Part shown: piece by piece, positions 2,808 to 41,743 of the stretch
Position numbering within the stretch: the stretch's first letter is position 1
Layout: each line of letters opens with the position of its first letter
From: a virus
Direction: 5' to 3' (one strand)
DNA length: 41,743 bases
Virus record (IMG/VR): IMGVR_UViG_3300046817_000504
Coordinates: 1-41,743 of that record
Notes under the pieces: generated by a model
Databases searched by the model: none
The model's input: the letters and a program-made list of their open reading frames with translations, nothing else
Told to the model about the DNA's origin: nothing
Position numbers and translations under genes: made by a program

Positions 2808-4643
2808 ATGAAGTGGCTCGCCTCAGTCCTGTTCGCCCTGTTCATTGCCGGCGCCGTGCAGGCCCAGCAACAGCCGGTTACCGTGGTTGGTCCGATCACA
2901 CCGGGGGATTGCGCCAAGTTTCAGAGCGTGACCGTCCTGGTCGATGCCGGGGCGTGCGGTGGTGGCGGCGGTTCCGGAGGGTTCACCATCGGGTCTCCCA
3001 TTACCGGAGGCACGCCCAACGGGCTCATCTACGACAATGCCGGCAACGTGGGCAATCTGGCGACCGCCAACAACGGCGTTGTAGTCACGACTGCGGCCGG
3101 CGTTCCGATGGTCAGCTCGTTCCTGCCCCTCGCGGTTCAGGGCAACATTACTGAGACCGGGACGCTGACCAGCGGCTCTACGGGCACCGGGTTCACGGTA
3201 TCTCTTGTCTCGAGCACCATTCTCGGGATTCTGCCGAAAGCCAATGGCGGGCTTGGGTTCAACGCTACGGCAACAGGCGGCGCGTCGGAAGTGCTGCGGC
3301 AGAGCTCGCTCGGCGGCGCCATAACGGTCAGTCAATTGGCCTGCGCCGACCTCTCGAATGGCGTAGCATCATGCTCGACCGACACGACCAACGCCACCAA
3401 CATCATTTCCGGGACGCTGCCGACCGGGCGGTTGACCGGCTCCTATACGGGCATTACCGGGGTCGGTACGTTGACCGCGGGTGGCACCGGAGCAGGGTTC
3501 GCCATCGACCTGACCTCCTCGGCCCTCAGTGGGATCGTCCCGGTCGTGAACGGCGGCACCGGGGCCGCGACCCTGGTGGCTCACAGCATCCTGGGCGGCA
3601 ACGGCACGGTCGCGATCAACCAATATGCACCGACCGGGGCCGGACAGGTTCTTCGGGTCGGGACAGCCGGGACCGATCCTGCCTTCTCGAACATCATTGG
3701 CCTGGGTGCCGCCAGCGACGGCTCGACCATCGACATCACCAACAGCGTCGTCATCAACGCCTCGAATCTCGGCGGCGGCAAGTTCTCCCCGACCTTCAGC
3801 GGGACCATAGACAACATAGCCGACCTATTCCTCGAGCCGGTATTTTCCGGGACTGCGGCGGTCACCAATTTCTATGGAATGAGCATCAACGACGCCTTTG
3901 TGACGGCCGGAGGCACGATCACCAATCAGTACGGCCTCAAGGTCAATTCCCCGACCCACGGGGGGACGATCAATCAGGCGATATGGACCACGACTGGAGG
4001 CCTCATCGGACTTGGAACATCGTCGGCACAGGCGCCCTTCCATTGGAACGCCAACGCGCTGCAGCAGCCGGCCGCCGCGTTGCCGGGCAATGTCGTTGCC
4101 TTGTTCACGCCCGCGGACGCGGCCGGGTCATCGATCATCATCGACGGGTTCGGCGGGGCTTTTGCCAATCCGCAGATGCTGGGGCGCATAGCCTCGGGAA
4201 CGGCAGCGAGCAAATCGAGCATCCCGACCGGGCAGACCGTGTTCCAGTTCTTCGGAGAGGGATACGATGGGACGACTTATGCCCCGGCCGGCCGCATCGA
4301 TTTCTTGAGCGCGGAGCCGGGAAACTGGTCCGGCACGGCCCACGGTGGGCAAATCGACCTCTATACGACTCCGGTAGGGACGACAAGCAACACAAGGGCC
4401 GTCCGCGTCTGGGCCTCCGGGGGCCTCGCAGTCGGGAACGGGGCGAATGATCCTGGACTCGGAAACCTCTCTACTCTCCCGATGCTTGTCGGGAATCTGC
4501 CGACCTGTAATGCAGCCCATACCGGGGTCCGCGCTTTTGTCACTGATCAGAATACGGGCGTGGCCTATCATGGCGCCGTGACGGGCGGCGGAACGAGCAA
4601 GCAGGCGGTCGTTTGTGACGGAACAAACTGGTATCAGGCATGA
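2808..4643 (+). CDS. Tail-fibre-like protein with signal peptide
   Basis: 611 residues, preceded by a good ribosome-binding site (taggagctaccc). The N-terminus MKWLASVLFALFIAGAVQA followed by QQQ is a convincing Sec signal peptide, which is unusual for a tail fibre. The body is Gly/Thr/Ser-rich and holds fibre motifs such as NGGTGAATLVAHSILGGNGT. Two diverged copies of a GTLT-GxTGxGF...LPxxNGG module lie at about nt 3159-3252 and 3466-3560. The C-terminus (FVTDQNTGV...VVCDGTNWYQA) resembles the tips of many phage fibres. The probable role is an elongated receptor-binding or appendage protein. It overlaps the endolysin gene by ATGA. Alternatively it is an exported surface protein that is not part of the virion. 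Confidence 0.75.
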   Translation: MKWLASVLFALFIAGAVQAQQQPVTVVGPITPGDCAKFQSVTVLVDAGACGGGGGSGGFTIGSPITGGTPNGLIYDNAGNVGNLATANNGVVVTTAAGVPMVSSFLPLAVQGNITETGTLTSGSTGTGFTVSLVSSTILGILPKANGGLGFNATATGGASEVLRQSSLGGAITVSQLACADLSNGVASCSTDTTNATNIISGTLPTGRLTGSYTGITGVGTLTAGGTGAGFAIDLTSSALSGIVPVVNGGTGAATLVAHSILGGNGTVAINQYAPTGAGQVLRVGTAGTDPAFSNIIGLGAASDGSTIDITNSVVINASNLGGGKFSPTFSGTIDNIADLFLEPVFSGTAAVTNFYGMSINDAFVTAGGTITNQYGLKVNSPTHGGTINQAIWTTTGGLIGLGTSSAQAPFHWNANALQQPAAALPGNVVALFTPADAAGSSIIIDGFGGAFANPQMLGRIASGTAASKSSIPTGQTVFQFFGEGYDGTTYAPAGRIDFLSAEPGNWSGTAHGGQIDLYTTPVGTTSNTRAVRVWASGGLAVGNGANDPGLGNLSTLPMLVGNLPTCNAAHTGVRAFVTDQNTGVAYHGAVTGGGTSKQAVVCDGTNWYQA

Positions 4644-5263
4644 CCAAGATCATCGACACCAACCACGACACGAGTCGCCGGCTGGACCGGCTCAAAGCGG
4701 CCGGAGTCGAAACGATCATCCGCTATCTCTCGCCTATCAACCCGGCTGGGGAAAAGTGCATCAAGGCTGCGGAGGCCCGGATGATCGCCGCTGCGGGCCT
4801 CAAGCTGGGGCTGGTCTGCGAGGGCTGGGGCGACTTCGCCCATGGCGGCATCAGCGCCGGGTCAGGCGAGCGGGATGCGCAATGGTGCTTCGACTACCTC
4901 CCGACGATCGGGGCCGTTCCCAACGCCTGCCTCTATTTTGCTGTCGATGTGGACGCCAACCCGCCTCAGATCGCCAAGCTGGTCATCCCCTATTTCCAGT
5001 CGATCTACGCCGTTTTCACCGACGACAATCCGTACCGGGTGGGCGTTTATGGTTCCGGCGCGGTCTGCCAAGCGGTGACGGATGCCGGCCTCTGCGACCT
5101 CACCTGGCTGTCCTGCTCCATGGGCTGGGACGAAAGCCGGGACTATCTGGCATCGAAGAAATGGGCGATCCGGCAGCATGTTCCGCAGGTCATTGCCGGG
5201 ATCGACACGGATCCCGACGATGCCAACGGGGACATAGGCGACTTTACACCCTTCGCAACTTAG
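4640..5263 (+). CDS. DUF1906-type glycoside hydrolase-like endolysin
   Basis: 207 residues. The opening (IIDTNHDTSRRLDRLKAAG...IIRYLSP), the central strand LYFAVDVDA and the strand VGVYGSG are typical of the DUF1906/Rv2525c-like TIM-barrel family, related in fold to GH25 lysozymes. In phages this domain usually acts as the peptidoglycan-degrading endolysin. Acidic residues in FAVDVDAN and near the C-terminus (GIDTDPDD) sit at positions expected at the mouth of the barrel. No signal peptide is seen, so release would need a holin, and a holin candidate follows directly. The start overlaps the previous stop (ATGA). The family call is fairly firm; the lytic role is inferred from family and context. 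Confidence 0.8.
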   Translation: MTKIIDTNHDTSRRLDRLKAAGVETIIRYLSPINPAGEKCIKAAEARMIAAAGLKLGLVCEGWGDFAHGGISAGSGERDAQWCFDYLPTIGAVPNACLYFAVDVDANPPQIAKLVIPYFQSIYAVFTDDNPYRVGVYGSGAVCQAVTDAGLCDLTWLSCSMGWDESRDYLASKKWAIRQHVPQVIAGIDTDPDDANGDIGDFTPFAT

Positions 5264-9809: not shown

Positions 9810-10403
9810 ATGACCGAAACCTACAGGCCAGGCTGGGACCCCGATCACGAATATGTCAGAATTAAGTATCATTGGACGGCCGAGGAAGTGGTGAAATTGC
9901 GGCGGCTACTGGGCGAGGGCTTGTCGGCCAGCCAGATTGGCGCCGCATTCAAGAAGACCAGGAGCGCGGTCATGGGCAAGGCATTTCGGCTGGGGCTGGT
10001 TGTCGGCGGCGGGCGGAAAGACCCGATGTCGGCAGAGGAGCGTCTGGCCCGCAAACGAACCGCCCAACGCAAGCGCCGTGACCCGGATGGCACCAGAAGC
10101 CATAAGAAGGCCGGTGGTGGGCCATCCATGGCGGGGCGGTATAAGCCACCCCGCCCCGACTGGGCCGCCTACGGGCCTCCGCTGGCCGTTCCTGCGGGTG
10201 AGATATGGCAGCCGCTGCCGGATGTGGCCGCGGTGAAGCTCCTCGAGCTGACCGATGCCCATTGCCGGTGGCCGCTGGGCGAACCGTCCGAAATGCTCTA
10301 TTGCGGTGCAACACCGGCCGGAGGGGGGCCGTACTGCGGACCCCATTGCCGGCTCGCGTACCGGCCGCGGATGAGCCTTGACGGCGCCGGCCGTGGCGAA
10401 TAA
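9810..10403 (+). CDS. GcrA-family transcriptional regulator
   Basis: 197 residues with a strong ribosome-binding site (cagggaggacacg). Residues about 21-63 form the GcrA DNA-binding domain (HWTAEEVVKLRRLLGEGLSA, SQIGAAF, AVMGKAFRLGL). A basic linker (80-110) leads to the C-terminal GcrA signature: HCRWPLGEP, YCGAT, and YCGPHCRLAY, with Cys152, Cys165, Cys176 and Cys180. In Caulobacter and relatives GcrA binds sigma70 holoenzyme and activates promoters that carry GANTC sites methylated by CcrM. The phage copy probably redirects or mimics this cell-cycle control. It lies in the early operon before a structured gap. Identification is firm; its targets are unknown. Confidence 0.88.
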   Translation: MTETYRPGWDPDHEYVRIKYHWTAEEVVKLRRLLGEGLSASQIGAAFKKTRSAVMGKAFRLGLVVGGGRKDPMSAEERLARKRTAQRKRRDPDGTRSHKKAGGGPSMAGRYKPPRPDWAAYGPPLAVPAGEIWQPLPDVAAVKLLELTDAHCRWPLGEPSEMLYCGATPAGGGPYCGPHCRLAYRPRMSLDGAGRGE

Positions 10404-15228: not shown

Positions 15229-15939
15229 ATGAAACCGCTGGCGATCGACCTGTTCTGTGGGCTTGGCGGCTGGGCAGAGGGGCTGCTGGCCGAGGGCTAT
15301 GAGGTGGTCGGCTTCGACATCGAGCGGCATGTCTACGGCGAGCACCGCTACCCCGCGCAGTTGGTGCTCCAGGACGTTCTGACCCTGCACGGCAGCCAGT
15401 TCAAGGATGCCGCCCTCATCGTGGCCAGCCCTCCGTGCCAGGCCTACAGCTATCGAGCCATGCCGTGGAAGCGGGCAAAGGCGCTGCCGCCGCCGGACAA
15501 CACGCTGTTCGAGACGTGCTTTCGCATCCAGCTCGAGGCGATCGCGGCGGCCGGCCGGCACATCCCGCTGGTGGTCGAGAACGTCCGGGGGGCGCAGAAG
15601 TGGGTGGGGCGAGCTCGCTGGAACTTCGGCTCGTTCTATCTGTGGGGCGATGTGCCGGCCCTGATGCCGGTGACGTTCAAGGGGTCAAAGGTTCCGGGCT
15701 TCCGATTCGATGGCAGCGGCGCGAGCTTTCAAACGGCATCGGTCGGCATCAACCTCTCAGAAATCGGCTTCAACGTCGCCAATGCACGCGAGTTCGGCCA
15801 CATGGTCGAGGGCGCGGAATACCGGCGCACCGCAGACGACAAGCGCCAGCACATCGGCAAAGCCCGCAAGTTCGCCAGCGCCATGATAGCCAAGATACCT
15901 CAGCCGCTGGCCCGGCATATCGGCCGCACCTACGCATAA
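15229..15939 (+). CDS. C5-cytosine DNA methyltransferase
   Basis: 236 residues. Motif I is DLFCGLGGW (residues 7-15, SAM binding). Motif IV is SPPCQAYS with catalytic Cys70. Motif VI is ENVRG (Glu117). Near the end, HIGKARKFA stands where the motif IX/X QxGNxxxP usually lies. The enzyme is short for the Dcm family (usually 300 or more residues), with a small target-recognition region. It would methylate cytosine in phage DNA, most likely to escape host restriction. No cognate endonuclease is nearby, so it is an orphan. It heads the accessory block before the terminase. Identification is firm; target sequence unknown. Confidence 0.9.
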   Translation: MKPLAIDLFCGLGGWAEGLLAEGYEVVGFDIERHVYGEHRYPAQLVLQDVLTLHGSQFKDAALIVASPPCQAYSYRAMPWKRAKALPPPDNTLFETCFRIQLEAIAAAGRHIPLVVENVRGAQKWVGRARWNFGSFYLWGDVPALMPVTFKGSKVPGFRFDGSGASFQTASVGINLSEIGFNVANAREFGHMVEGAEYRRTADDKRQHIGKARKFASAMIAKIPQPLARHIGRTYA

Positions 15940-16224: not shown

Positions 16225-16674
16225 ATGACCCTCGTCGCCTACGCCCGCGTCAGCACGGCCGATCAGGATCCGCAGTTGCAGTTGGATGCCCTGGCTGCGG
16301 CCGGCTGTGACAAGATGTTCGTCGAGAAGGGCTCTGGGGCCGATCGGGACCGGCCGGCGCTGGCCAAGTGCATGGCTTTCCTGCGCAAGGGCGACGTACT
16401 CCTTTTTTGGAAGCTCGATCGGCTGGCCCGCTCTGTCGTGCACCTGGGTCAGATCGCGGAGGACTGCGAGAAGCGCGGCGTGGGGCTGCGCTGCCTGACC
16501 CAGCCGATAGACACGACGAGCAGTACTGGAAGATTGATGTTCTCGATCCTGGCCAGCTTTGCCGAGTTCGAGCGCGACATCATCCGCGAGCGCACCCTGG
16601 CCGGTCTGGCGGCGGCACGGGCGCAGGGACGGATCGGGGGGCGGCCGCGGAAGGTGAAGGAGGCATCCCCATGA
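16225..16674 (+). CDS. Serine recombinase, catalytic domain only
   Basis: 149 residues. YARVSTADQ holds the nucleophile Ser10. ADRDRPAL, WKLDRLARS (about 62-70) and STGRLMFSILASFAEFERD with RER complete the resolvase/invertase catalytic core and the start of the E helix. The chain stops at GRIGGRPRKVKEASP, where a full resolvase continues into a C-terminal HTH, so the usual DNA-binding domain is missing. It could act with a partner, use an AT-hook-like GGRPRK tail, or be a degraded integrase or resolvase. The next gene starts in ATGA overlap, so the truncated end looks fixed rather than a sequencing error. Confidence 0.85.
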   Translation: MTLVAYARVSTADQDPQLQLDALAAAGCDKMFVEKGSGADRDRPALAKCMAFLRKGDVLLFWKLDRLARSVVHLGQIAEDCEKRGVGLRCLTQPIDTTSSTGRLMFSILASFAEFERDIIRERTLAGLAAARAQGRIGGRPRKVKEASP

Positions 16675-16916
16675 GCAATCTTCATCCGGTCCATTTTTCG
16701 TTGCATGGGAAGCAAAGACTCCCACTGAACATGGGTCGTGTGCGTTTAGACCCGGCCATGAAGACGGACATGGCCGCCGTGGCCATTTCCATATTCATCG
16801 ATTGCGTGAATGTAGCAGTTCCGTTTCAAGACGCCCTGCTCGCCGTCTACTTAAGCGGGCTGCAACATGGCCAAGCATTGGCCAAGGAGATCGATGATGC
16901 ACCCCACGACTTATGA
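16671..16916 (+). CDS. Hypothetical protein
   Basis: 81 residues from the ATGA overlap with the recombinase. The N-terminal part is basic (HFSLHGKQRLPLNMGRVRLD). The C-terminal half is hydrophobic and helical (MAAVAISIFIDCVNVAVPFQ, ALLAVYLSGLQHG) but too polar for a clear membrane span. It overlaps the Acb2-like gene by about 20 nt. Not recognised. Confidence 0.55.
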   Translation: MSNLHPVHFSLHGKQRLPLNMGRVRLDPAMKTDMAAVAISIFIDCVNVAVPFQDALLAVYLSGLQHGQALAKEIDDAPHDL

Positions 16917-17112
16917 ATATCTTAAGCCAACCGAATCTCAGATTGAGCAGATGGCGAAGGTCCGTGCTGCCGCCAAGGCTTACAACGATGTTCTGGACGA
17001 TGTTTTGCCCGATGGTCCCGATAAGACCTTTGTGATTCGCGCTCATCGATCCAATGCCATGTGGGCGAACGTTGCCATTACTCGCCTGCCGGACGGCACA
17101 CCGCGCACATGA
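16894..17112 (+). CDS. Acb2/Tad1-like small protein (possible cyclic-nucleotide sponge)
   Basis: 72 residues from ATGATG, with aaggag 4 nt upstream. YEYLKPTESQIEQMAKVRAA is followed by a helix, LPDGPDKTFVIRA, and the final helix HRSNAMWANVAITR. This order (helix with KVRxxAK, a DK/DR turn, then AMWANxAI) is one I associate with the Acb2/Tad1 hairpin-domain family. Those proteins bind cyclic oligonucleotide or gcADPR signals and so block CBASS or Thoeris immunity. The usual acidic residues of the last helix (KLREA) are here RAHRSNA. Position beside an orphan methyltransferase fits a counter-defence block. Family call is by eye; ligand unknown. Confidence 0.6.
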   Translation: MMHPTTYEYLKPTESQIEQMAKVRAAAKAYNDVLDDVLPDGPDKTFVIRAHRSNAMWANVAITRLPDGTPRT

Positions 17113-17164
17113 CCCGCCTCCTGATCATCATCGAATGGATGCGGTCGTGGTGGGAGCGGCGGCG

Positions 17165-19033
17165 GTGACGACCGCGTTCGTCCCGATCGCGTCGACCCCG
17201 GCCGCGCCGGAGCCGGAGAAGTTCGAGCTCAAGTTCACCAAGGTTGCGCCGTTCCCGCGTGATCGTTTCCTGTCGTTCATCTCCAAGTGCAAGGTGCAGT
17301 CGAAGGACTACGGTCTGATCCCGTTCAAGATGCTGGGCTCGCAGCGGTATATCCTTGAGGAGATTTGTGCCGGCCTCGCCGAAGGGATTACCACATTCTA
17401 CATCTTGAAGGCGCGGCAGCTCGGCTCATCTACGTTCTTCTTGTTGTTGGACGTGTTCTGGTCGATGGAGCACAAGGGCCTGCTCGGCGTGTTCCTCACA
17501 CATAAGGAGGAATCGAGGGATGATTTCCGCGCGGCCATTGAGGTCTTTTTTGCAGAAACGCCGAAGGGCTTTCTCGTTAAATACGTCCGCCACAATCGCA
17601 ATCTGCTTATACTCAAGAACGGATCGAAATTCCGCTATCTCATCGCTGGAACGTCGGAGAATAGAAAAGGCGGGTTGGGTCGATCTGGCTCGGCTAATTT
17701 CGTCCATTCGACTGAAACCGCGTTCTATGGCAATGGCGACGACCTTAATGAATTTCGGTCGCAGACAAGTTCACTATACCCTCATCGACTTCAAATCTAC
17801 GAAACGACCGCGAACGGCTTCAACTGGTTCTCGGACGAATGGGATTTGGCGGTCAAGGACCCGACCAAGCGGGCGATATTCGTCGGCTGGTGGCGGGATG
17901 AAAGGAACCAACTACCCATCGACCATCCCTTCTTTGCCAAGTACATGCACGATGGCCTATCGTCTACGCTCTCCGCATTGGAACGAAAGAGAATTCGAGA
18001 GGTACGCGAAGCGTATGATTTCGAAATATCGCTTCAGCAGGTCGCATGGTATCGCTGGCATCTGGAATCGGAAAAGGCTGGGGATCAGTCGCTCATGGAT
18101 CAGGAATATCCTTGGACGACCGATGACGCCTTTCAGGCGACCGGCTCTCAGTTCTTTACCGCGGAGGCCTTGACCACCTGCACGCGCGAGGCCCGCAAGC
18201 ATCCGTTCCAGGTGTATCGGTATAAGCTCGGCACCAAGTTCGAGGACACGGTTCTGCAGCAGACACGCGACACCCGCTCGCCCCTGCGCATCTGGGAGGA
18301 AGCATCGAAGTTCGGATACTACGCGCTCGGCTGCGACCCGGCCTATGGCTCATCGGACGAAGCCGACCGCACCTGTATCTCGATCTGGCGCTGTTTCTCC
18401 GACGCCATGGTGCAGGTGGCCGAGTTCTGCTCCACCGAGCCGTCGACCTACCAATGCGCCTGGGTGCTTGCGCATCTGGCCGGCTATTACGGTCTCACTT
18501 ACATCATGCCGGTCCTGGAAATCACCGGGCCGGGGCAGTCCGTGTTCGATGAGTTGCAGAAGGTCCATAAGCACGCTTCCGAAATCAAGGCGAACGAGGA
18601 CTATGCCGGCATCCGCAACATTCTCGCCAACATGCGGCATTTCATGTACAAAAGAATCGACTCGTTGTCCGGCGGTCTGGTCTACCAGTGGCGCACATCC
18701 CACGAATTGAAGACGCGGATGATGAACTCCTATAAGAATGGTATCGAGCTCGGCCGCGTCGTCCCCCGCTCGGTTCCGCTGCTCGAGGAAATGCGCCGCA
18801 TCGTAAACGATGAAGGCACGATCGGCGGACAGGGACGCGCCAAGGACGATCGCGTGATGGGAGCGGCGCTCGCCTACCAGGGGTGGAACATGTGGGCGCA
18901 GCCCAAGCTAAAGGCCATGGGCATGACCATGAAGGCGGCGGCCGAGATCGACCAGCGCGGCGGAACCGAGCCGGTCGACCGACTGGTGGTCAACTACTTG
19001 AAGCGCATGAACATCGGAGTCCCCTCCACATGA
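17165..19033 (+). CDS. Terminase large subunit
   Basis: 622 residues from GTG 17165, chosen because gggag lies upstream and its codon overlaps the stop of a 19-codon frame (17109-17168). ATG 17135 is an alternative but lacks a Shine-Dalgarno. The ATPase Walker A variant is KARQLGSST (residues 82-90). The Walker B region ends STETAF with Glu184. The nuclease half shows GCDPAYG with Asp391, a middle VLEITGPGQ strand and AKDDRVMG with Asp561/562. This motor cuts concatemeric DNA and pumps it into the prohead through the portal. Small terminase is not clearly identified; the DNA-binding-like product at 19030 or the 37031 product could serve. Confidence 0.92.
   Translation: MTTAFVPIASTPAAPEPEKFELKFTKVAPFPRDRFLSFISKCKVQSKDYGLIPFKMLGSQRYILEEICAGLAEGITTFYILKARQLGSSTFFLLLDVFWSMEHKGLLGVFLTHKEESRDDFRAAIEVFFAETPKGFLVKYVRHNRNLLILKNGSKFRYLIAGTSENRKGGLGRSGSANFVHSTETAFYGNGDDLNEFRSQTSSLYPHRLQIYETTANGFNWFSDEWDLAVKDPTKRAIFVGWWRDERNQLPIDHPFFAKYMHDGLSSTLSALERKRIREVREAYDFEISLQQVAWYRWHLESEKAGDQSLMDQEYPWTTDDAFQATGSQFFTAEALTTCTREARKHPFQVYRYKLGTKFEDTVLQQTRDTRSPLRIWEEASKFGYYALGCDPAYGSSDEADRTCISIWRCFSDAMVQVAEFCSTEPSTYQCAWVLAHLAGYYGLTYIMPVLEITGPGQSVFDELQKVHKHASEIKANEDYAGIRNILANMRHFMYKRIDSLSGGLVYQWRTSHELKTRMMNSYKNGIELGRVVPRSVPLLEEMRRIVNDEGTIGGQGRAKDDRVMGAALAYQGWNMWAQPKLKAMGMTMKAAAEIDQRGGTEPVDRLVVNYLKRMNIGVPST
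19007..19033 (+). repeat. Terminase 3'-end direct repeat, copy A
   Basis: The last 27 nt of the terminase gene (encoding MNIGVPST and stop). A second copy with 22 of 27 matches lies at 19476-19502, in the same relation to the following gene. The two copies flank the 19030-19479 gene exactly, which suggests that gene was inserted with duplication of the terminase end. Confidence 0.65.
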
Positions 19034-19479
19034 AAAGCAATGAAGCAAGAGGACACCGCCCTGTCGGCAATAGAGTTACCGCCAGAGGAGTGCACGCTTT
19101 CGACACCGAGGCGCGCACGATCGAGCAAGCTGTGGACATCATAAGATGGCAACAAATCAAAAAGAGACAGGCAGATACTCTCAAGGGTAAAAAACGGTCA
19201 TTGCGACAAGAATTTGCGCTGGCCAAATTCGTCGCCCTCAGTAAGAAAAATGCGGGAAAAATTTCCCTGGCCGGAGGCATGACCAGCACTATTAAACGAC
19301 CCAATAGCCCTAAGCCGAAAACACCTCATCCATTTTTGGATTTACCGGACGATAAAAAACAACAGAAATGCCGGGAAATGTACGACAGCGGATGTTGGGG
19401 GATTGGGGTTCCCGCTTTTCGACGGTTGGCTAAAGTGTTCAAAGTCACTGTGGGGCAGGTATTGGAGTGGAACGCATGA
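19030..19479 (+). CDS. Inserted basic HTH-like protein
   Basis: 149 residues from an ATGA overlap with the terminase. It is very basic (HRPVGNRVTARG, IKKRQADTLKGKKRSLRQ) and ends with a likely HTH (GVPAFRRLAKVFKVTVGQVLEW). It is AT-richer than the terminase. Near-identical copies of the terminase 3' end stand at both of its borders, so it looks like a recent insertion (moron). It could be a DNA-binding regulator or take part in packaging. Function not known. Confidence 0.7.
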   Translation: MKSNEARGHRPVGNRVTARGVHAFDTEARTIEQAVDIIRWQQIKKRQADTLKGKKRSLRQEFALAKFVALSKKNAGKISLAGGMTSTIKRPNSPKPKTPHPFLDLPDDKKQQKCREMYDSGCWGIGVPAFRRLAKVFKVTVGQVLEWNA

Positions 19480-19502
19480 ACATAGGAGTACCCGCCGGAT
19501 GA
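19476..19502 (+). repeat. Terminase 3'-end direct repeat, copy B
   Basis: Reads as M-N-I-G-V-P-A-G-stop in its own frame, a remnant of the terminase C-terminus (22 of 27 nt match copy A). Its ATGA overlaps both the end of the inserted gene and the start of the next tiny gene, so it restores the original gene junction. Confidence 0.6.
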
Positions 19503-19597
19503 TCTTGATATTTATCGCCGCCGCCATCGCCCTTATGGCCGCTATGATCGCTGCCGCGCTCTGGATCGCCTACATCGACGCACGCTACCTCTCATAA
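19499..19597 (+). CDS. Tiny single-TM protein
   Basis: 32 residues, one Ile/Ala-rich membrane helix (MILIFIAAAIALMAAMIAAA), then WIAYIDARYLS. Start in ATGA overlap with the terminase-end remnant. First of four tiny genes in series; function unknown. Confidence 0.5.
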   Translation: MILIFIAAAIALMAAMIAAALWIAYIDARYLS

Positions 19598-19606
19598 GTG
19601 GCTGGC

Positions 19607-19684
19607 ATGGTGATCAACCTCCTTCTACTCGCGTTCACCCTGTTCCTGATCTGGCGGATTCGTGTTGCGTGGCATCCAAAATGA
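19607..19684 (+). CDS. Tiny single-TM protein
   Basis: 25 residues: a membrane helix (VINLLLLAFTLFLIW) with a basic tail (RIRVAWHPK). Overlaps the next tiny gene by ATGA. Function unknown and existence only moderately supported. Confidence 0.4.
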   Translation: MVINLLLLAFTLFLIWRIRVAWHPK

Positions 19685-19770
19685 TCACTGACGATACGGC
19701 GGCCATGTACTTCCTGTTTTCCTGCGCCGCGCTCGCCATACTGGCGCTGGTCATCGTGAGGCTGGAATGA
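19681..19770 (+). CDS. Tiny single-TM protein
   Basis: 29 residues: a short acidic start (MITDDTAAM), then one membrane helix (YFLFSCAALAILALVIV). Coupled to neighbours on both sides by ATGA overlaps. Function unknown. Confidence 0.45.
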   Translation: MITDDTAAMYFLFSCAALAILALVIVRLE

Positions 19771-19928
19771 TTTGGATCATTATCGGAACCGTCTGCACCA
19801 CGACGACCTGCCATGAAGTTCCTACGGACAGGCGGTTCGAGAGCGCCATTGAATGCCGGCACTATGCCGACGACTGGCTTAAACATACGGCAATGTACTT
19901 CAAGCTGAGTTGCAAACGGGAAGCGTGA
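19767..19928 (+). CDS. Small cysteine-containing, possibly exported protein
   Basis: 53 residues from ATGA. A short hydrophobic start (IWIIIGTVC) may be a weak export signal. The body has four cysteines and an amphipathic helix (FESAIECRHYADDWLKHTA), which could form disulphides outside the cytoplasm. Similar small CxxxxxC proteins occur in rhizobial phages. Function unknown. Confidence 0.5.
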   Translation: MIWIIIGTVCTTTTCHEVPTDRRFESAIECRHYADDWLKHTAMYFKLSCKREA

Positions 19929-19967
19929 GACTGTAATAATGTTAACGTCTCGGGAATAGAGCGGCGC

Positions 19968-20237
19968 ATGAACGATCTTTGCCAGTGCCCTACGTGCGGG
20001 CGAATGCACCGGCACCTTGGAAGCCCGCCATGGAGAAATACAATGCAGCCACATCAGCAGCGGGTTGTTGATGAGAAGAAGGAACTGGATGAGAAGCTCG
20101 ACAAGCTCAAGGCGTTCATCGAGACCAGCCCGATATTCAAGGGGCTGCACCAGGACGAGCGTGGGCGCCTCAATCGCCAGTTCGATGTAATGGCCGAATA
20201 TTCGAGCATCCTGGCGCAGCGCATCGCGGAGTTTTGA
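19968..20237 (+). CDS. Small helical phage protein with N-terminal CxC..C motif
   Basis: 89 residues from ATG 19968. The N-terminus has CQCPTCGRMHRH, a possible metal knuckle. An internal ATG at 20043 has a better ribosome-binding site (ggagaaataca) and would start the conserved part: RVVDEKKELDEKLDKLKAF, IFKGLHQDERGRLNRQ and YSSILAQRI. This helical pattern is typical of a widespread small phage family (crAss001_48-related type). Its role is not known. Either or both starts may be used. Confidence 0.65.
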   Translation: MNDLCQCPTCGRMHRHLGSPPWRNTMQPHQQRVVDEKKELDEKLDKLKAFIETSPIFKGLHQDERGRLNRQFDVMAEYSSILAQRIAEF

Positions 20238-20998: not shown

Positions 20999-21183
20999 AC
21001 GAAATCACGATCACCTGTGTCGGCCGCGAGGCCCTGAAATCCTGCAAGCCTGACGGCGAAGGCTGGGAGCGCGTGTCGGATCGGTGGGTGCGCGGCGAGG
21101 GGCGTCTTCTCGGATACTACAGCGAAGGCCCGCTGTACGAGCGGCAGATCTATGAGGCGACGTTCCGGCGGGTGACCGCATGA
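20995..21183 (+). CDS. Small hypothetical protein before the portal
   Basis: 62 residues from ATGA. Mixed composition with Trp and Gly (GEGWERVSDRWVRGEGRLLG). Its stop overlaps the portal start (ATGA), so it is co-translated with the portal. Not recognised. Confidence 0.55.
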   Translation: MNEITITCVGREALKSCKPDGEGWERVSDRWVRGEGRLLGYYSEGPLYERQIYEATFRRVTA

Positions 21184-25001: not shown

Positions 25002-26012
25002 TTGCCAATTCTGGGTACGGGCATCGTTCCCGCTTCGGGCGCAGTCGCCTCCGAACTTTCCGCCGTCGTCCGTCGGGCGTTTATGCCCCGCGTATATGTC
25101 CAAATCTGGAAATCGGCGCCGCTCATCGCCGCCATGCTGGCCTCCGCGCAGGTGGCATCCGGCGGCTTGTCGCCCATCACCGCGCCAGTCCAGGGCACCC
25201 CCATGGTGTCCGGACAGTGGGTCGATTATTCGGGCTCGTTCCAGCAACCCGGCGTGCAGCCTGGCATCCAGGACGCCGAATTCAACCTCAAGGCCTTCGT
25301 CTCGACCATCCCCATGCTCGGCATGGAAGGCCTGGTGCAGTTGGATTACTCGGTCGTTCCGCTGATCGAAGCGCGCATGAACGATTCGACCAACGTCACC
25401 ATCGACACCTTCGCGATCTCGATGTTCAACAATGTCGCCAACAGTCAGCAGATGATCGGTCTGCCGGCCGCCATCGACGACGGCACCTTCGCGGCCAACT
25501 ATGGCGGCATTCCCAGGGCCACCAATACCTTCTGGAAATCGACCTACGTGCACGGCAACGGCAACGTCACCCCGACCCGCAACCTGATGCTGCAGTATAT
25601 CAGCCAGGTCTCCAAGACCACGGGCGAGATGCCGTCGCTGGGTATCATGGGATTCGGCACCTGGACGCTGTTGGCGCAGGATTTCACCTCGCAGGAGCGC
25701 TACAACATCACCCCCGGCAACGCGTTCGGGGCCGACAAGAAGGCCGAGGCTCTGTTCCGCGCGCTCGACGTGGCCGGCGTGCCGTTCTACGCCGATCCGT
25801 ACTGCCCGGAGGGGACGCTTTACCTCATCAATACCAACTACCTGTCGCTCTACCTGCACGAACGGGCGGCATTCAGTTTCACCGGCTTCGAATCGACCCT
25901 GCCGAACAACCAGCTCGGCTATGTCGGGGCCATCCTGTCGCTGCTCGAGCTCGTCGACGTGAAGTGCAAGGCGCACGGCAAGTTCGACGGGCTGGCCTTC
26001 CTGAACATCTGA
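25002..26012 (+). CDS. Major capsid protein
   Basis: 336 residues from a TTG start with AGGAGG five bases upstream (24991-24996). The sequence (RRAFMPRVYVQIWKSAPLIA, then long beta-rich stretches such as YSVVPLIEARMND and MFNNVANSQQMIGLPAAID) is that of phage HK97-fold coat proteins of podovirus-like genomes. It follows the scaffold gene and precedes a decoration-like protein. Hundreds of copies would form the icosahedral shell. The strong ribosome-binding site fits high expression. Confidence 0.85.
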   Translation: MPILGTGIVPASGAVASELSAVVRRAFMPRVYVQIWKSAPLIAAMLASAQVASGGLSPITAPVQGTPMVSGQWVDYSGSFQQPGVQPGIQDAEFNLKAFVSTIPMLGMEGLVQLDYSVVPLIEARMNDSTNVTIDTFAISMFNNVANSQQMIGLPAAIDDGTFAANYGGIPRATNTFWKSTYVHGNGNVTPTRNLMLQYISQVSKTTGEMPSLGIMGFGTWTLLAQDFTSQERYNITPGNAFGADKKAEALFRALDVAGVPFYADPYCPEGTLYLINTNYLSLYLHERAAFSFTGFESTLPNNQLGYVGAILSLLELVDVKCKAHGKFDGLAFLNI

Positions 26013-37219: not shown

Positions 37220-37386
37220 CCCATATTCCGCAGATACGGAAAATTGAGGCGTTGGTTCACGGCTATAGCCAGGACGAGGTTGATAGTGATTCTTGGGTTT
37301 GGGTATGGATGTTCGATAAACTTGATGAAAATGGCATAGAAGTAGGCCATTTCGATTGGGTTTTTAGGGAAAATGAGTCGGCATGA
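37216..37386 (+). CDS. AT-rich small acidic protein, likely insertion
   Basis: 56 residues from ATGA. Acidic and Trp-rich (DSDSWVWVWMFDKLDENG), beta-prone. AT-richer than both neighbours and joined to them by ATGA overlaps, as in the other suspected morons. No flanking repeat is visible here. Function unknown. Confidence 0.5.
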   Translation: MTHIPQIRKIEALVHGYSQDEVDSDSWVWVWMFDKLDENGIEVGHFDWVFRENESA

Positions 37387-37653: not shown

Positions 37654-38040
37654 ATGCGAATCCTCAGTCTATTGATCGCCGGCATCCTCGCCAGCGCCAT
37701 GTCGTTCGGCGTGGTCTTTGCCCAGACCGGGCAATTGGCCCCGGTTGCCACCGTGACCCCCCTTACTGCCGGGGTGGCAACGCAGATCATCGGCACCAAT
37801 GCTAGCCGCAAGACCATCCAGATCTGCAATGTCGGTACCACGGTCGTCATGATCTGGCCGGGGCCGGCGACCACCACGTTTGTCAGCGCCTACGAACTCC
37901 CGGCACTGTCCAGCGGCACCACGGTCTGCTTCACCCCACCGAACGGGTTCCAGCCGGGTCAGGGCGGCAACAGCGCCGGCAATTCCTGGGGCGCCAATTC
38001 GTTCACCAGCACCGGGTCGATCACTGTGATGGAATGGTGA
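37654..38040 (+). CDS. Exported small beta-rich protein
   Basis: 128 residues. A signal peptide MRILSLLIAGILASAMSFG-VVFA precedes QTGQL. The mature part is beta-rich (TIQICNVGTTVVMIWPGP, TTVCFTPPNGFQPGQGGN), with a Cys pair that may form a disulphide. It resembles small phage head/tail decoration proteins, but its signal peptide suggests it reaches the periplasm or surface. Function unknown. Confidence 0.65.
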   Translation: MRILSLLIAGILASAMSFGVVFAQTGQLAPVATVTPLTAGVATQIIGTNASRKTIQICNVGTTVVMIWPGPATTTFVSAYELPALSSGTTVCFTPPNGFQPGQGGNSAGNSWGANSFTSTGSITVMEW

Positions 38041-38043
38041 TGA

Positions 38044-39069
38044 ATGTTCGTCCTGGGCCTGCTCCTGTCGGTAGCGTATTGGCCGGGTTGGGTAAGCCCG
38101 GCCATGTCGCCACGGTGGGCGGTCCTGTCCGTCTTGGCGACCGGGCTCCTGTCGTGGGGACGGGAGCCCGTACCCTTTACGCGGGCGCATCTCGCGGGCT
38201 GTGCCTTGGTGCTCTGGGCTGCGCTAACGGTGCTCTGGACCCCCATCCGCCTCGATAGCATCGACGCGCTGTGGCAGACGGTTGCCCTCCCTTCCGTCTG
38301 TTTCTGTCTGGGGTCGCAGGCGCGGTCCCTGCGGCCCCTTTTTTACGGGGCGGCGATCGGTCTCGGGGTGTCCGGCGCTGTCGCCATCGTCCAGGTGCTC
38401 GGCTGGCATCCCTTGCCCGAAGTCGCCAGCCCGTCCGGCCTGTTCGTGAACCGAAACTATATGGCTGAGCCGGCCGCCTTGGTGGCGGTTTGGCTGGTCT
38501 CCGAAGGGCTGTGGTGGTGGCTCATCCCGGTCGCCCCGGCGGCGCTGCTCCCCATGGCCCGCGGTGCGTTGCTGGGCTTTGCTGCCGCCATGAGCGTGCG
38601 CAGCCGCACCTTGGTTGGCGCCGCCGCCATCCTCGTGGCTGTTCTGACGCTTGCCCGCCCCGGCGCGCTCACCGGCATGAGCGAGCGCATGGACATCTGG
38701 AGCAACACCATTGCCGGCCTGTCCTGGCTCGGCAGTGGCATCGGCTCGTTCTGGGCCATTCATCGCGAGCTCTATCCTGACGGGTTGGCAGAACATGCGC
38801 ACAACGACTTCCTCGAGCTGGCCTCTGATCTCGGGGCGATCGGCATCGCGCTTTTGGGGTGGCTTGCGTGGGAGCTACGTGGTCCGCTCGACTCGGCCCG
38901 CCTCGTCCTCGTCGCGCTCGCCGCAGAGGCGTGCTTTGCCTTCCCGACCCATACTCCACTCACCCTCGCGCTTGGGGCGCTGTGCGCGGGTCATGCTGTT
39001 CGGAATAGCCCTGTGGTACGCGGTTTCTCTCTGCGTCGCGGAAACCATCTTCGGGAGGTCCTTCAATGA
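38044..39069 (+). CDS. O-antigen ligase/polymerase-like (Wzy_C) membrane protein
   Basis: 341 residues, with about ten hydrophobic segments. Family signatures are FVNRNYMAEP (residues 134-143), MARGALLG (171-178), RMDIW (215-219), LGSGIGSFW (229-237) and HAHNDFLELASDLGAIG (251-267). The HxHNxxLE/D loop in a periplasmic region is typical of the O-antigen ligase/Wzy_C superfamily (WaaL, Wzy). Such enzymes join or polymerise lipid-linked O-antigen. A phage copy probably alters lipopolysaccharide to exclude other phages or change host surface. It is about 341 residues, near the short end of the family. It overlaps two further reading frames at its end. Confidence 0.8.
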   Translation: MFVLGLLLSVAYWPGWVSPAMSPRWAVLSVLATGLLSWGREPVPFTRAHLAGCALVLWAALTVLWTPIRLDSIDALWQTVALPSVCFCLGSQARSLRPLFYGAAIGLGVSGAVAIVQVLGWHPLPEVASPSGLFVNRNYMAEPAALVAVWLVSEGLWWWLIPVAPAALLPMARGALLGFAAAMSVRSRTLVGAAAILVAVLTLARPGALTGMSERMDIWSNTIAGLSWLGSGIGSFWAIHRELYPDGLAEHAHNDFLELASDLGAIGIALLGWLAWELRGPLDSARLVLVALAAEACFAFPTHTPLTLALGALCAGHAVRNSPVVRGFSLRRGNHLREVLQ

Positions 39070-39244
39070 ATCGGATCGTCGCCTCGCCACGCAGCATCTT
39101 GTCTGGGCTCGCACGATATTCCCGCTCAATCATCGTTTCCGCGATTATGCTGATGCCATGGTCGCCGGCTTTCGCGCAGCAGACGCAGCCCTACCATTTG
39201 ATCAGCGCAGCTACCACGAATTCGACCAGCATCAAGGGAACTAA
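38993..39244 (+). CDS. Overlapping small membrane protein (candidate Wzy_C partner)
   Basis: 83 residues in a third frame. It overlaps the end of the Wzy_C-like gene by 77 nt and the start of the next exported-protein gene by 179 nt. A membrane segment (LFGIALWYAVSLCVAETIFG) is followed by RLATQHLVWARTIFPLNHRF. The pattern A..IFPLNHRFRD resembles the TPR-like partner often found with O-antigen-polymerase-like genes. The last 15-20 residues look non-protein-like. Its ribosome-binding site is weak. Possible but not certain gene. Confidence 0.45.
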   Translation: MLFGIALWYAVSLCVAETIFGRSFNESDRRLATQHLVWARTIFPLNHRFRDYADAMVAGFRAADAALPFDQRSYHEFDQHQGN

Positions 39245-39524
39245 CGGCGGGGTCATCAGCATCGTCGCGATCAATACCACGGCGACGATCTATTATCTCA
39301 AGTTCTATGACACCGCCGCGGCGCCGACCTGCAATACGACCGCGGTAGCGCTGACCTTCCCGATCCCGGCCACGGCCTCGAGCACCGGCGGCGGTCTGGT
39401 CGTATCGCTGCCGCAGGAGGCCCGGTTCCTCAGCGGCATCGGCATCTGCCTGGTGGGCGGCATTGCCGACAACGACAACAGCAATGCCGCGACCGGCGTG
39501 GCGGTTGACGTGTTCTTCAAATGA
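39066..39524 (+). CDS. Exported small beta-rich protein
   Basis: 152 residues from ATG 39066, which has cgggaggtccttca upstream. The signal sequence is long: a basic start, then SIIVSAIMLMPWSPAFA before QQTQP. The N-terminal 25 residues may be shaped by the overlapping frame. The body (GVISIVAINTTATIYYLKFYD, LVVSLPQEARFLSGIGIC) is beta-rich with a Cys pair. It resembles small phage fibre-associated proteins but carries a signal peptide. Function unknown. Confidence 0.65.
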   Translation: MNRIVASPRSILSGLARYSRSIIVSAIMLMPWSPAFAQQTQPYHLISAATTNSTSIKGTNGGVISIVAINTTATIYYLKFYDTAAAPTCNTTAVALTFPIPATASSTGGGLVVSLPQEARFLSGIGICLVGGIADNDNSNAATGVAVDVFFK

Positions 39525-39712
39525 GGACCGCCGTAGCCATCATTCTGTCCCTGCTGATCTCGGCGGCGTCGGCGCAATTGCTGACCACCGGGGTCGGCCC
39601 AGGCGGGTTCGGGACGGGTACGGGCGGCGGGGGTGGTGGCGGGGCCTGTACCGGGGCACTCGATCTTTCAACCGGCTGCGCGCAGCTCGTGGCCTTTGGA
39701 GTGTTATTCTGA
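39521..39712 (+). CDS. Exported Gly-rich small protein
   Basis: 63 residues from ATGA. Signal peptide MRTAVAIILSLLISAASA, then QLLTTG and a Gly-rich tract (GTGTGGGGGGG), ending ACTGALDLSTGCAQLVAFG. Short Gly-rich proteins of this kind precede fibre genes in several alphaproteobacterial phages. The TGATG overlap with the next gene suggests co-translation. Function unknown. Confidence 0.6.
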   Translation: MRTAVAIILSLLISAASAQLLTTGVGPGGFGTGTGGGGGGGACTGALDLSTGCAQLVAFGVLF

Positions 39713-41403
39713 TGACCAGAAACGGCAAACTCCTTCTCGCCGCCTTCGTCCTGCTTGTCGGGCCGGTCGCGGCGGTCGCCACCAACGACACCATCGGGGT
39801 CACGGTCGGATCGGGCAAGATCGCCAACCTGCTCAAGTTCGGCTCCGGCAATGTCATCAGCGAAACCGGCGTATGCGATGCCACGACCGAGAATCAATGT
39901 GCGGCCGTCAGCGCAGGCGGGGGACTGTCTACAGTAAGTCTTACCGGCTCGACCACGGCGGTGACGCAGCCTACGGGAACGAATCTTCACGCGGTTCTCG
40001 ACACCACCTCAACTACCGCTGTCACCCAGGCGACCGCCGCGAACCTCAAGGCCACCGTTACCACCGACCAGACCACGCCCGGCACGACCGATCTTGTGCA
40101 TTCAAAGTTGTGCGACACGTCTGCGCCGACGACTTGCGCGCCAGTCAGCGCAACAAATGGCGTGAGTGTCACTATTGTCGGCAGCAACGGCAATGTTACC
40201 AGTGCAGCGGTTCCGGCGGATGCGTTCTCAAACGGAAACAGCGGTTTTCTGACTCTTGGCTACAACCTCGTTTTCAACGGTACGACTTGGGATCGCGCTC
40301 GTGGCACTGCCGCCGGCGGACAATTTATACAAGGCCCCGCCGCTACCGGCGCAACCCTCGCCGGCAATCCCGTCCGCGTCGGCATGTCGGACGGTACCAA
40401 CGCGCAGAACTGGCTCGCCGCCATTGCGCTGTCCCCGACCGCCGGGGTGAACGGCAACAACACCGGAGCGGTGGTCAACTATCTTTATAACGGTTCCGGC
40501 TATGTCGCCATGCCGGGGACGGTCAGCGGCGCATTGGTCATGCCCGGAACAAACGGCACCTGGGGCCTCGCCGCGACTTCGCAGAACGTCTCCCCGCCGA
40601 CTAACGGCATGGTGGTCATGGGGCAGTTCACGACCAGCCCCACGACGCTGAGCACCACCAACGTCTCTCCGCTCCAGATGGACAACAGCGGGAAGCTTCT
40701 GGTCAATTGCACGGGTTGTTCCGCCGCGTCCACTGTTAACCCGACGACGATCGCAACTTGGGGACTTGCGGCGGCGAGCCAAAATGTTGCCGCGCCGACC
40801 AATATGCAGGTTGTCGGCTGTCAGTTCACGACGAGCCCAACGACGATCACCACGACGAACGTGAGCCCGTTCCAGTGCGATAACGCGAACAACCTGCTGG
40901 TCAACGTCAAGACCGCGACAGGGCTTGCGCAGGGGTCAACCACTTCTGGGCAAACCGGCTCCCTCACGATGGCGGCGGTGACCGCTGCCAATCCGACCTA
41001 CACGACCGCGCAGACCGCCTACACCTCGCAGGATGTGAAGGGAAACACGCGTGTCGTCCTCGGTGGCGGCATTCCCGAAACCGCCTCCGCGACTGGTACG
41101 ACTGGCGCGACAACCGCCACACTCGCAACCGCTGCCGCGACCACGACCTACATCTGCGGCTTCTCGATCCGCGCCAATGCGACCGCAGCCGCGACCGGCA
41201 ATGCTACCGTAACCGGCACGATCACCGGGACGCTCAACTTCACCCAATGGACTGCTCCGCTCGCCAGCGGCCTCGGCGTGACTGAGGAAACCTTCACGCC
41301 CTGCATCCCAGCGAGTGCGGTCAATACCGGCATCGCCGTGGTGTCTGCTGCGCCCGGAACCGGAGGAGTCGTGTCCGTTACTGCCTGGGGCTACCAGCAA
41401 TGA
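39712..41403 (+). CDS. Fibre-like protein with signal peptide and internal duplication
   Basis: 563 residues from ATG 39712. The signal peptide is MTRNGKLLLAAFVLLVGPVAAVA before TNDT. The body is Thr/Ala/Gly-rich beta structure as in tail fibres. A module is duplicated: WGLAATSQNVSPPTN...NVSPLQMDNSGKLLVN (nt about 40552-40722) and WGLAAASQNVAAPTN...NVSPFQCDNANNLLVN (about 40749-40915). Like the 2808 protein it seems destined for export, so it may be a surface protein rather than a classic fibre. It ends in ATGA overlap with the last gene. Confidence 0.7.
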   Translation: MTRNGKLLLAAFVLLVGPVAAVATNDTIGVTVGSGKIANLLKFGSGNVISETGVCDATTENQCAAVSAGGGLSTVSLTGSTTAVTQPTGTNLHAVLDTTSTTAVTQATAANLKATVTTDQTTPGTTDLVHSKLCDTSAPTTCAPVSATNGVSVTIVGSNGNVTSAAVPADAFSNGNSGFLTLGYNLVFNGTTWDRARGTAAGGQFIQGPAATGATLAGNPVRVGMSDGTNAQNWLAAIALSPTAGVNGNNTGAVVNYLYNGSGYVAMPGTVSGALVMPGTNGTWGLAATSQNVSPPTNGMVVMGQFTTSPTTLSTTNVSPLQMDNSGKLLVNCTGCSAASTVNPTTIATWGLAAASQNVAAPTNMQVVGCQFTTSPTTITTTNVSPFQCDNANNLLVNVKTATGLAQGSTTSGQTGSLTMAAVTAANPTYTTAQTAYTSQDVKGNTRVVLGGGIPETASATGTTGATTATLATAAATTTYICGFSIRANATAAATGNATVTGTITGTLNFTQWTAPLASGLGVTEETFTPCIPASAVNTGIAVVSAAPGTGGVVSVTAWGYQQ

Positions 41404-41743
41404 TCTGGACTAGGGTTCTAGTCTCACTTCTGCTTACTGCGGGGCTGTTCTGCCTTGCGCAGGCGCGACCGGGGCCGGATAGTAATTACAACATCAGTGT
41501 TGGCGCTCCTGCTGGGTTCACCGGCCCTGGTGATGTTGTAGCTTTTAATTTTTGGGTAGGGCTTAGGGCTTATACGAGCGCAACTCGGGGGACTGCGGCT
41601 ATAAATCTATGCGACAATACTGGGGCCAATTGTTCTGATATAAATACTGACGCTACGACTGGGGCCTTGAGCAATCCAGGGACGCATGGCGCAAACAACT
41701 GTGCCACAAGCGGGACTTGTCTTATACATACGATTTACGATAA
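41400..41743 (+). CDS. Arabinofuranosidase-like exported protein, 3' partial
   Basis: 114 codons are visible before the window ends. The signal peptide is MIWTRVLVSLLLTAGLFCLA-QA before RPGPD. The segment NFWVGLRAYTSATRGTAAIN, LCDNTGANCSDI, then CATSGTCLIHTIYD matches the start of the alpha-L-arabinofuranosidase B catalytic domain (YGLRAYxxAY...CxxxTCLIxxIYDQSG). The sequence is AT-richer than upstream genes and similar in base use to the propeller gene at the left window end. It could be the N-terminal part of the same kind of carbohydrate-active tail protein. Confidence 0.7.
   Translation, partial: MIWTRVLVSLLLTAGLFCLAQARPGPDSNYNISVGAPAGFTGPGDVVAFNFWVGLRAYTSATRGTAAINLCDNTGANCSDINTDATTGALSNPGTHGANNCATSGTCLIHTIYD

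Follow-up and report, generated by a model that had tools for sequence, protein, structure and literature searches.

The phage record IMGVR_UViG_3300046817_000504 carries, at 38044..39069 on the plus strand, a gene for an integral membrane glycan transferase of 341 residues, which we assign with high confidence to the Wzy_C/WaaL superfamily. The 3′ end of this gene is overlapped by a second, conserved gene (38993..39244, plus strand), which the original prediction for this DNA missed and which is read in the +1 frame. With this pair, the phage probably modifies sugars carried either by the cell that it infects or by exported proteins of its own. The window referred to below is the whole stretch of DNA that was analyzed, 41,743 nucleotides (41.7 kb) of a soil phage, with genes for terminase at 17054, portal at 21180 and the major head protein at 25002.

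Family, fold and active site of the transferase

The transferase ORF begins with the ATG at 38044, and its stop codon ends at 39069. The original prediction had described a membrane protein with VNRNYMAEP and HAHNDFLE signatures and had placed it in the Wzy_C/O-antigen ligase superfamily. The coordinates, both motifs and the strong hydrophobicity were confirmed, and the superfamily assignment is borne out by a profile of 32 relatives, which matches the O-antigen ligase WaaL (7tpg) at E 1.9e-11, as well as by the fold and the catalytic residues described below. The proposed search with PF04932 gave a divided result: residues 157-271 match at E 5.6e-6 and 25 of the 32 family members match as well (E <= 0.01), but the window protein alone scores 26.7 bits and stays below the Pfam gathering cut-off of 31.7 bits, which seven of the nine relatives in capsid-sharing records exceed. 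Homologs with about 30-53% identity are present in related phage records.

The AlphaFold (AF2) model of the transferase (pLDDT 84.9, pTM 0.86) has 7tpg as its sole significant match when compared with the PDB by Foldseek (E 9.4e-5, probability 1.00, TM 0.59), and its only match in the viral structure library is a weak one, to a protein of Arthrobacter phage Faja. A chance match between hydrophobic sequences was considered and is ruled out by the invariant polar residues and by the restriction of the fold match to WaaL.

The alignment of 32 sequences shows no variation at R215, H253 and N254, and R173 is present in at least 90% of the sequences. R173 (codon 38560..38562), R215 (38686..38688) and H253 (38800..38805 together with N254; all on the plus strand) align in the HMMER alignment to 7tpg with R191, R265 and H313 of WaaL, respectively, the WaaL numbers having been counted by hand along this alignment. 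We take these three WaaL residues to be catalytic, with support from PMC12800693; by analogy, R173 and R215 would handle the pyrophosphate, and H253 would be the catalytic base. The histidine H324 of PglS has been equated with the catalytic histidine of WaaL (PMC12800693). The conserved residues, the profile match to 7tpg and the match to the WaaL fold support the prediction that the transferase faces the periplasm and uses undecaprenyl-linked glycans.

The likeness to WaaL of Cupriavidus metallidurans (7tpg, 7tpj) thus lies in the fold, the equivalents of the three catalytic residues and the PF04932-type core; the differences are a sequence identity of about 16% and a shorter protein (341 residues as against 413). 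To our knowledge, no TPR-like partner ORF accompanies WaaL. Wzy polymerases are characterized by RX10G or RX15G motifs in two periplasmic loops (PMC12004945); in the phage transferase, R215 and G230 form RX14G, and no second motif was identified in the 32-sequence alignment. Because WaaL ligases, some polymerases and protein O-oligosaccharyltransferases (O-OTases) share the same core (PMC12800693; PMC13228068), the acceptor is not readable from the sequence.

The overlapping partner gene

The partner gene (38993..39244) encodes 83 residues, comprising one transmembrane (TM) helix and a TPR-like half-repeat (ARTIFPLNHRFRD), and its ATG sits over the codons of G316 and H317 of the transferase. 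It was exposed as a third-frame ORF by GC content at the codon positions, which indicates a switch of frame near 38,850-39,150. Within the overlap, GC at the three codon positions of the partner frame is 0.57/0.48/0.73, a pattern like the one that the transferase body shows when read in its proper frame (0.60/0.46/0.70), and the tail of the transferase in the overlap is unconserved. An HMM built on four seed sequences and refined iteratively against 34 loci (7,634 ORFs in six frames) detected 37 domains in 30 of the 34 loci at E below 0.01, counts in which the four seeds, as members of the set, match by construction and some loci are near-duplicates. All of these domains lie in a +1-frame ORF that crosses the transferase stop codon, and no off-target match occurred among the 7,634 ORFs. 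The partner also accompanies the transposed transferase copies G025 and G042, and is missing from L022, L144 and L145. In the partner, a single hydrophobic helix precedes a motif of the type AARLFPW....R; TPR similarity is weak and is seen in longer versions, the best Pfam E-value (0.0016) coming from a relative. We have little doubt that the partner is a real gene.

In most loci, an ATG, TTG or GTG is located at or near the same place as the start of the partner. Three loci (L125, L138 and L190) have no such codon near the partner helix, and for this reason we only infer that the partner is initiated and translated separately.

In cellular Novosphingobium relatives (L221 and L222), the equivalent segment is fused in frame with the Wzy_C core. 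The core of these proteins matches profile A3 (E about 1e-17) and is followed by a basic loop, a TM segment and a helix with RLMPW or RLAPW, which resembles the partner motif; they differ from the phage pair in being cellular and in consisting of one fused protein of 848-878 residues with a long C-terminal extension. When the partner HMM was applied to 72 cellular Wzy_C loci, the top three of 6,279 ORFs came from Wzy_C genes, a match that is suggestive at E-values of only 0.12-0.24. The fusions in the cellular relatives point to the partner as a possible missing subunit. Separate TM-plus-repeat ORFs with weak matches are also found near a Wzy_C gene in gammaproteobacterial genomes (L174:6671-7412 and L194:6209-6911), and are possibly a cellular counterpart of the phage partner.

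Distribution and genomic surroundings

No relative was found in viral contigs (by direct look-up) or in named phages when the transferase alone served as the query; relatives were reached through the capsid protein (80 loci) and then with an alignment query. A transferase homolog is carried by nine of the 50 capsid-sharing records searched, and each of the nine was detected with PF04932 as well as with the transferase sequence as query. The gene lies at the same site in five of these records, downstream of genes like those at 37383 and 37654, and elsewhere in G025, G042, G008 and G009; in G004 and G006, the flanking genes are kept and the transferase is absent. The transferase gene is an accessory gene. 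The alignment query yielded 32 viral loci with relatives, and 21 of 23 further records (eight of the 21 being longer than 40 kb) have no detectable homolog of the window capsid protein. One more relative lies on contig L190, which belongs to the bin of a Rhizobiales genome and on which the neighboring genes have matches in portal and head families of phages; apart from it, cellular matches are remote, and the searches gave no close homolog from cells. Contamination by host DNA is ruled out by the synteny of the relatives among phage structural genes.

The position among exported genes that had been claimed for the transferase was upheld. Directly upstream, the gene at 37654..38040 (plus strand) encodes a small beta-rich protein with a Sec signal-peptide-like start, whose relatives (30-58% identical) lie upstream of the transferase in syntenic records, with more distant ones near transposed copies. 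Its AF2 model (pLDDT 71.9) is all beta, and comparison of this fold with the PDB gave nothing below E 5e-3. Directly downstream, a beta-rich protein with a Sec signal-peptide-like start (39066..39524, plus strand) is homologous to part of gp046 of Caulobacter phage KSC; its gene overlaps the partner gene, and its true start is uncertain. Signal-peptide-like starts are also present on a small Gly-rich protein (39521..39712, plus strand), on a large Ser/Thr-rich fibre-like protein without a convincing PHROG match (39712..41403, plus strand) and, of the Sec type, on the ORF from 41400 to the end.

Exported-looking genes were called with a crude rule rather than with a trained predictor, and in the window also by eye. 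By the rule, they account for 32 of the 55 immediate neighbors as against 12 of 128 distant genes (Fisher p 1e-11). This difference should be read as a trend: the loci are related and the rule is crude, so that the p-value overstates it. It carries weight because the same pattern is seen at sites where head genes surround the cassette: in L121 and L190, an exported protein is encoded directly beside the transferase. In L144, L145 and L022, one is located within about 1 kb.

Sec signal-peptide-like starts occur on many large fibre-like phage proteins, including those of 500-800 residues, in the window (2808-4643 and 37654-41743), in L116, L125 and L129-L135, and in others. At the site in L115 (G019; 16862-19968) that corresponds to 37654-41403 of the window, the small beta-rich-looking proteins mostly have no signal peptide, and export therefore seems to have been gained or lost within this phage group.

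Carbohydrate-active domains at both ends of the window had been part of the original argument for control of the host surface, and this part of it is largely wrong. The one clear domain of this sort, an Rv2525c-like glycoside-hydrolase-like domain (PF08924) at 4640-5263, is grouped with endolysins in PHROGs and its protein is probably a phage lysis enzyme; nothing comparable is found at the right end. The scan of window genes (most early genes being unclassified) revealed neither a depolymerase or other gene of a glycan pathway nor an integrase or a repressor; a serine recombinase of 149 residues (16225-16674) is closest to phage DNA invertases (phrog_125, E 4e-60). A homolog of the GcrA-type cell-cycle regulator (9810-10403) presumably indicates an alphaproteobacterial host, and the phage may tune the cell-cycle transcription of this host with it and with a partial C-5 cytosine methylase (15229-15939). 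Because ORFs are cut at both window ends (41400-41743 and 1-2487) and the records of relatives open at other points, the genome is suggested to be circularly permuted, with a small piece missing from the record.

Possible roles of the pair

The model that we favor, at slightly less than an even chance, is a late two-part periplasmic membrane transferase that remodels the surface glycans of the host. Both parts would be expressed late in infection. The Wzy_C core, a GT-C enzyme resembling WaaL, would work on the periplasmic side, where undecaprenyl pyrophosphate would supply it with a glycan made by the host. The partner would be a membrane-anchored, periplasmic TPR-like piece that stands in for the C-terminal domain fused to the core in some cellular relatives; its probable task would be to position the acceptor or the complex. 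We consider it most likely that the host surface polysaccharide would acquire a new linkage or a new attachment, and related phages would then be hindered in re-adsorption or superinfection. The computation itself shows the enzyme class, the catalytic residues, the conservation of the overlapping partner and the spread among phages, and the model adds late expression, separate translation of the partner, a complex of the two, the donor, the acceptor and the benefit as inferences.

Surface remodeling is favored because phage precedents do this. A Wzy_C-family enzyme of Acinetobacter prophages, adjoining a depolymerase gene, is assigned to capsule conversion (PMC13228068), and P. aeruginosa has a phage-acquired Wzy-beta (PMC4815439). 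The former case makes control of the host surface, as originally predicted, plausible by analogy. Seroconversion by the transferase is likewise plausible, although its classical lysogenic form is without support because no integrase or repressor was identified in the window genes that were scanned. Wzy2Ph (PMC13228068) is also phage-borne and of the Wzy_C family, and lies near the depolymerase gene towards one prophage end. Compared by description only, it and other prophage Wzy enzymes differ in belonging to temperate gammaproteobacterial prophages, and the available parts of their descriptions mention no overlapping partner gene (PMC13228068; PMC4815439). Since Wzy_C enzymes of phages have already been described near tail genes, the transferase is not a new kind. 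The open-access papers searched did not describe this separate phage family, its link to exported proteins or the TPR-like partner in another frame, and none dealt with a phage oligosaccharyltransferase like this one or with the overlapping gene.

The frequency of exported phage neighbors counts against surface remodeling, since protein glycosylation would account for it no less well. Also on the negative side are the scan of window genes without a depolymerase, other glycan-pathway gene, integrase or repressor, the score of the window protein below the Pfam cut-off, the weak TPR similarity of the partner and the three loci that lack it. The pair could instead be a phage O-OTase (PglL/PglS/Tfp-like) that glycosylates the adjacent Sec-exported phage proteins in the periplasm, which is possible, if doubtful, because Sec-exported neighbors recur and the partner is TPR-like. 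These neighbors are Ser/Thr-rich and low in charge, their enrichment extends to head-gene sites, and the partner may resemble the membrane-attached periplasmic C-terminal domain of PglS as described (PMC12800693). PglL, PglS and TfpM share with the phage pair a Wzy_C core, and H324 of PglS corresponds to the catalytic histidine of WaaL (PMC12800693). They are single host-encoded polypeptides with a periplasmic C-terminal domain, whereas the candidate counterpart of this domain in the phage is a separate overlapping gene. TfpM is the best NCBIfam match of the transferase, though sub-threshold (14.7 of 600 bits), and no curated OTase model reaches its cut-off. Against protein glycosylation, the exported array of G006 occurs without the transferase, no clearly exported protein is encoded next to the copies in G025 and G042, and the enrichment carries the limits given above. 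A little more doubtful is the broader proposal of a widespread phage family with its own split O-OTase, composed of the Wzy_C core and the overlapping-frame TPR-like membrane subunit and glycosylating Sec-exported phage proteins periplasmically.

It is improbable that the transferase is ordinary moron cargo, acquired by recombination into a permissive late region, with the overlapping ORF a decaying, unmade remnant of a fused C-terminal domain. Patchy presence, varying sites, the three partners without a nearby start codon and the in-frame fusion of cellular relatives would fit such an origin, but the partner is conserved across divergent loci, the coding signature of the overlap follows the partner frame, and the catalytic residues are invariant. 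A programmed +1 frameshift yielding a fused transferase-TPR protein would account for the constant +1 frame, the three loci without an obvious start codon and the cellular fusions, but is very unlikely on topology, the partner helix starting where the last transferase helix ends, with no room for the cytoplasmic loop of the cellular fusions, and most loci keep a start codon at or near the same place, while no slippery site was found by eye.

The known examples of phage genes that alter bacterial surface sugars come mostly from temperate phages that infect a small number of pathogens. The phage-borne Wzy_C family described here is present in many uncultivated phages, almost always with an overlapping partner, which is conserved and which annotation pipelines would probably miss. 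The link to exported proteins makes it testable whether lipid-linked glycans of the host are placed on the host surface or on the phage's own exported proteins.
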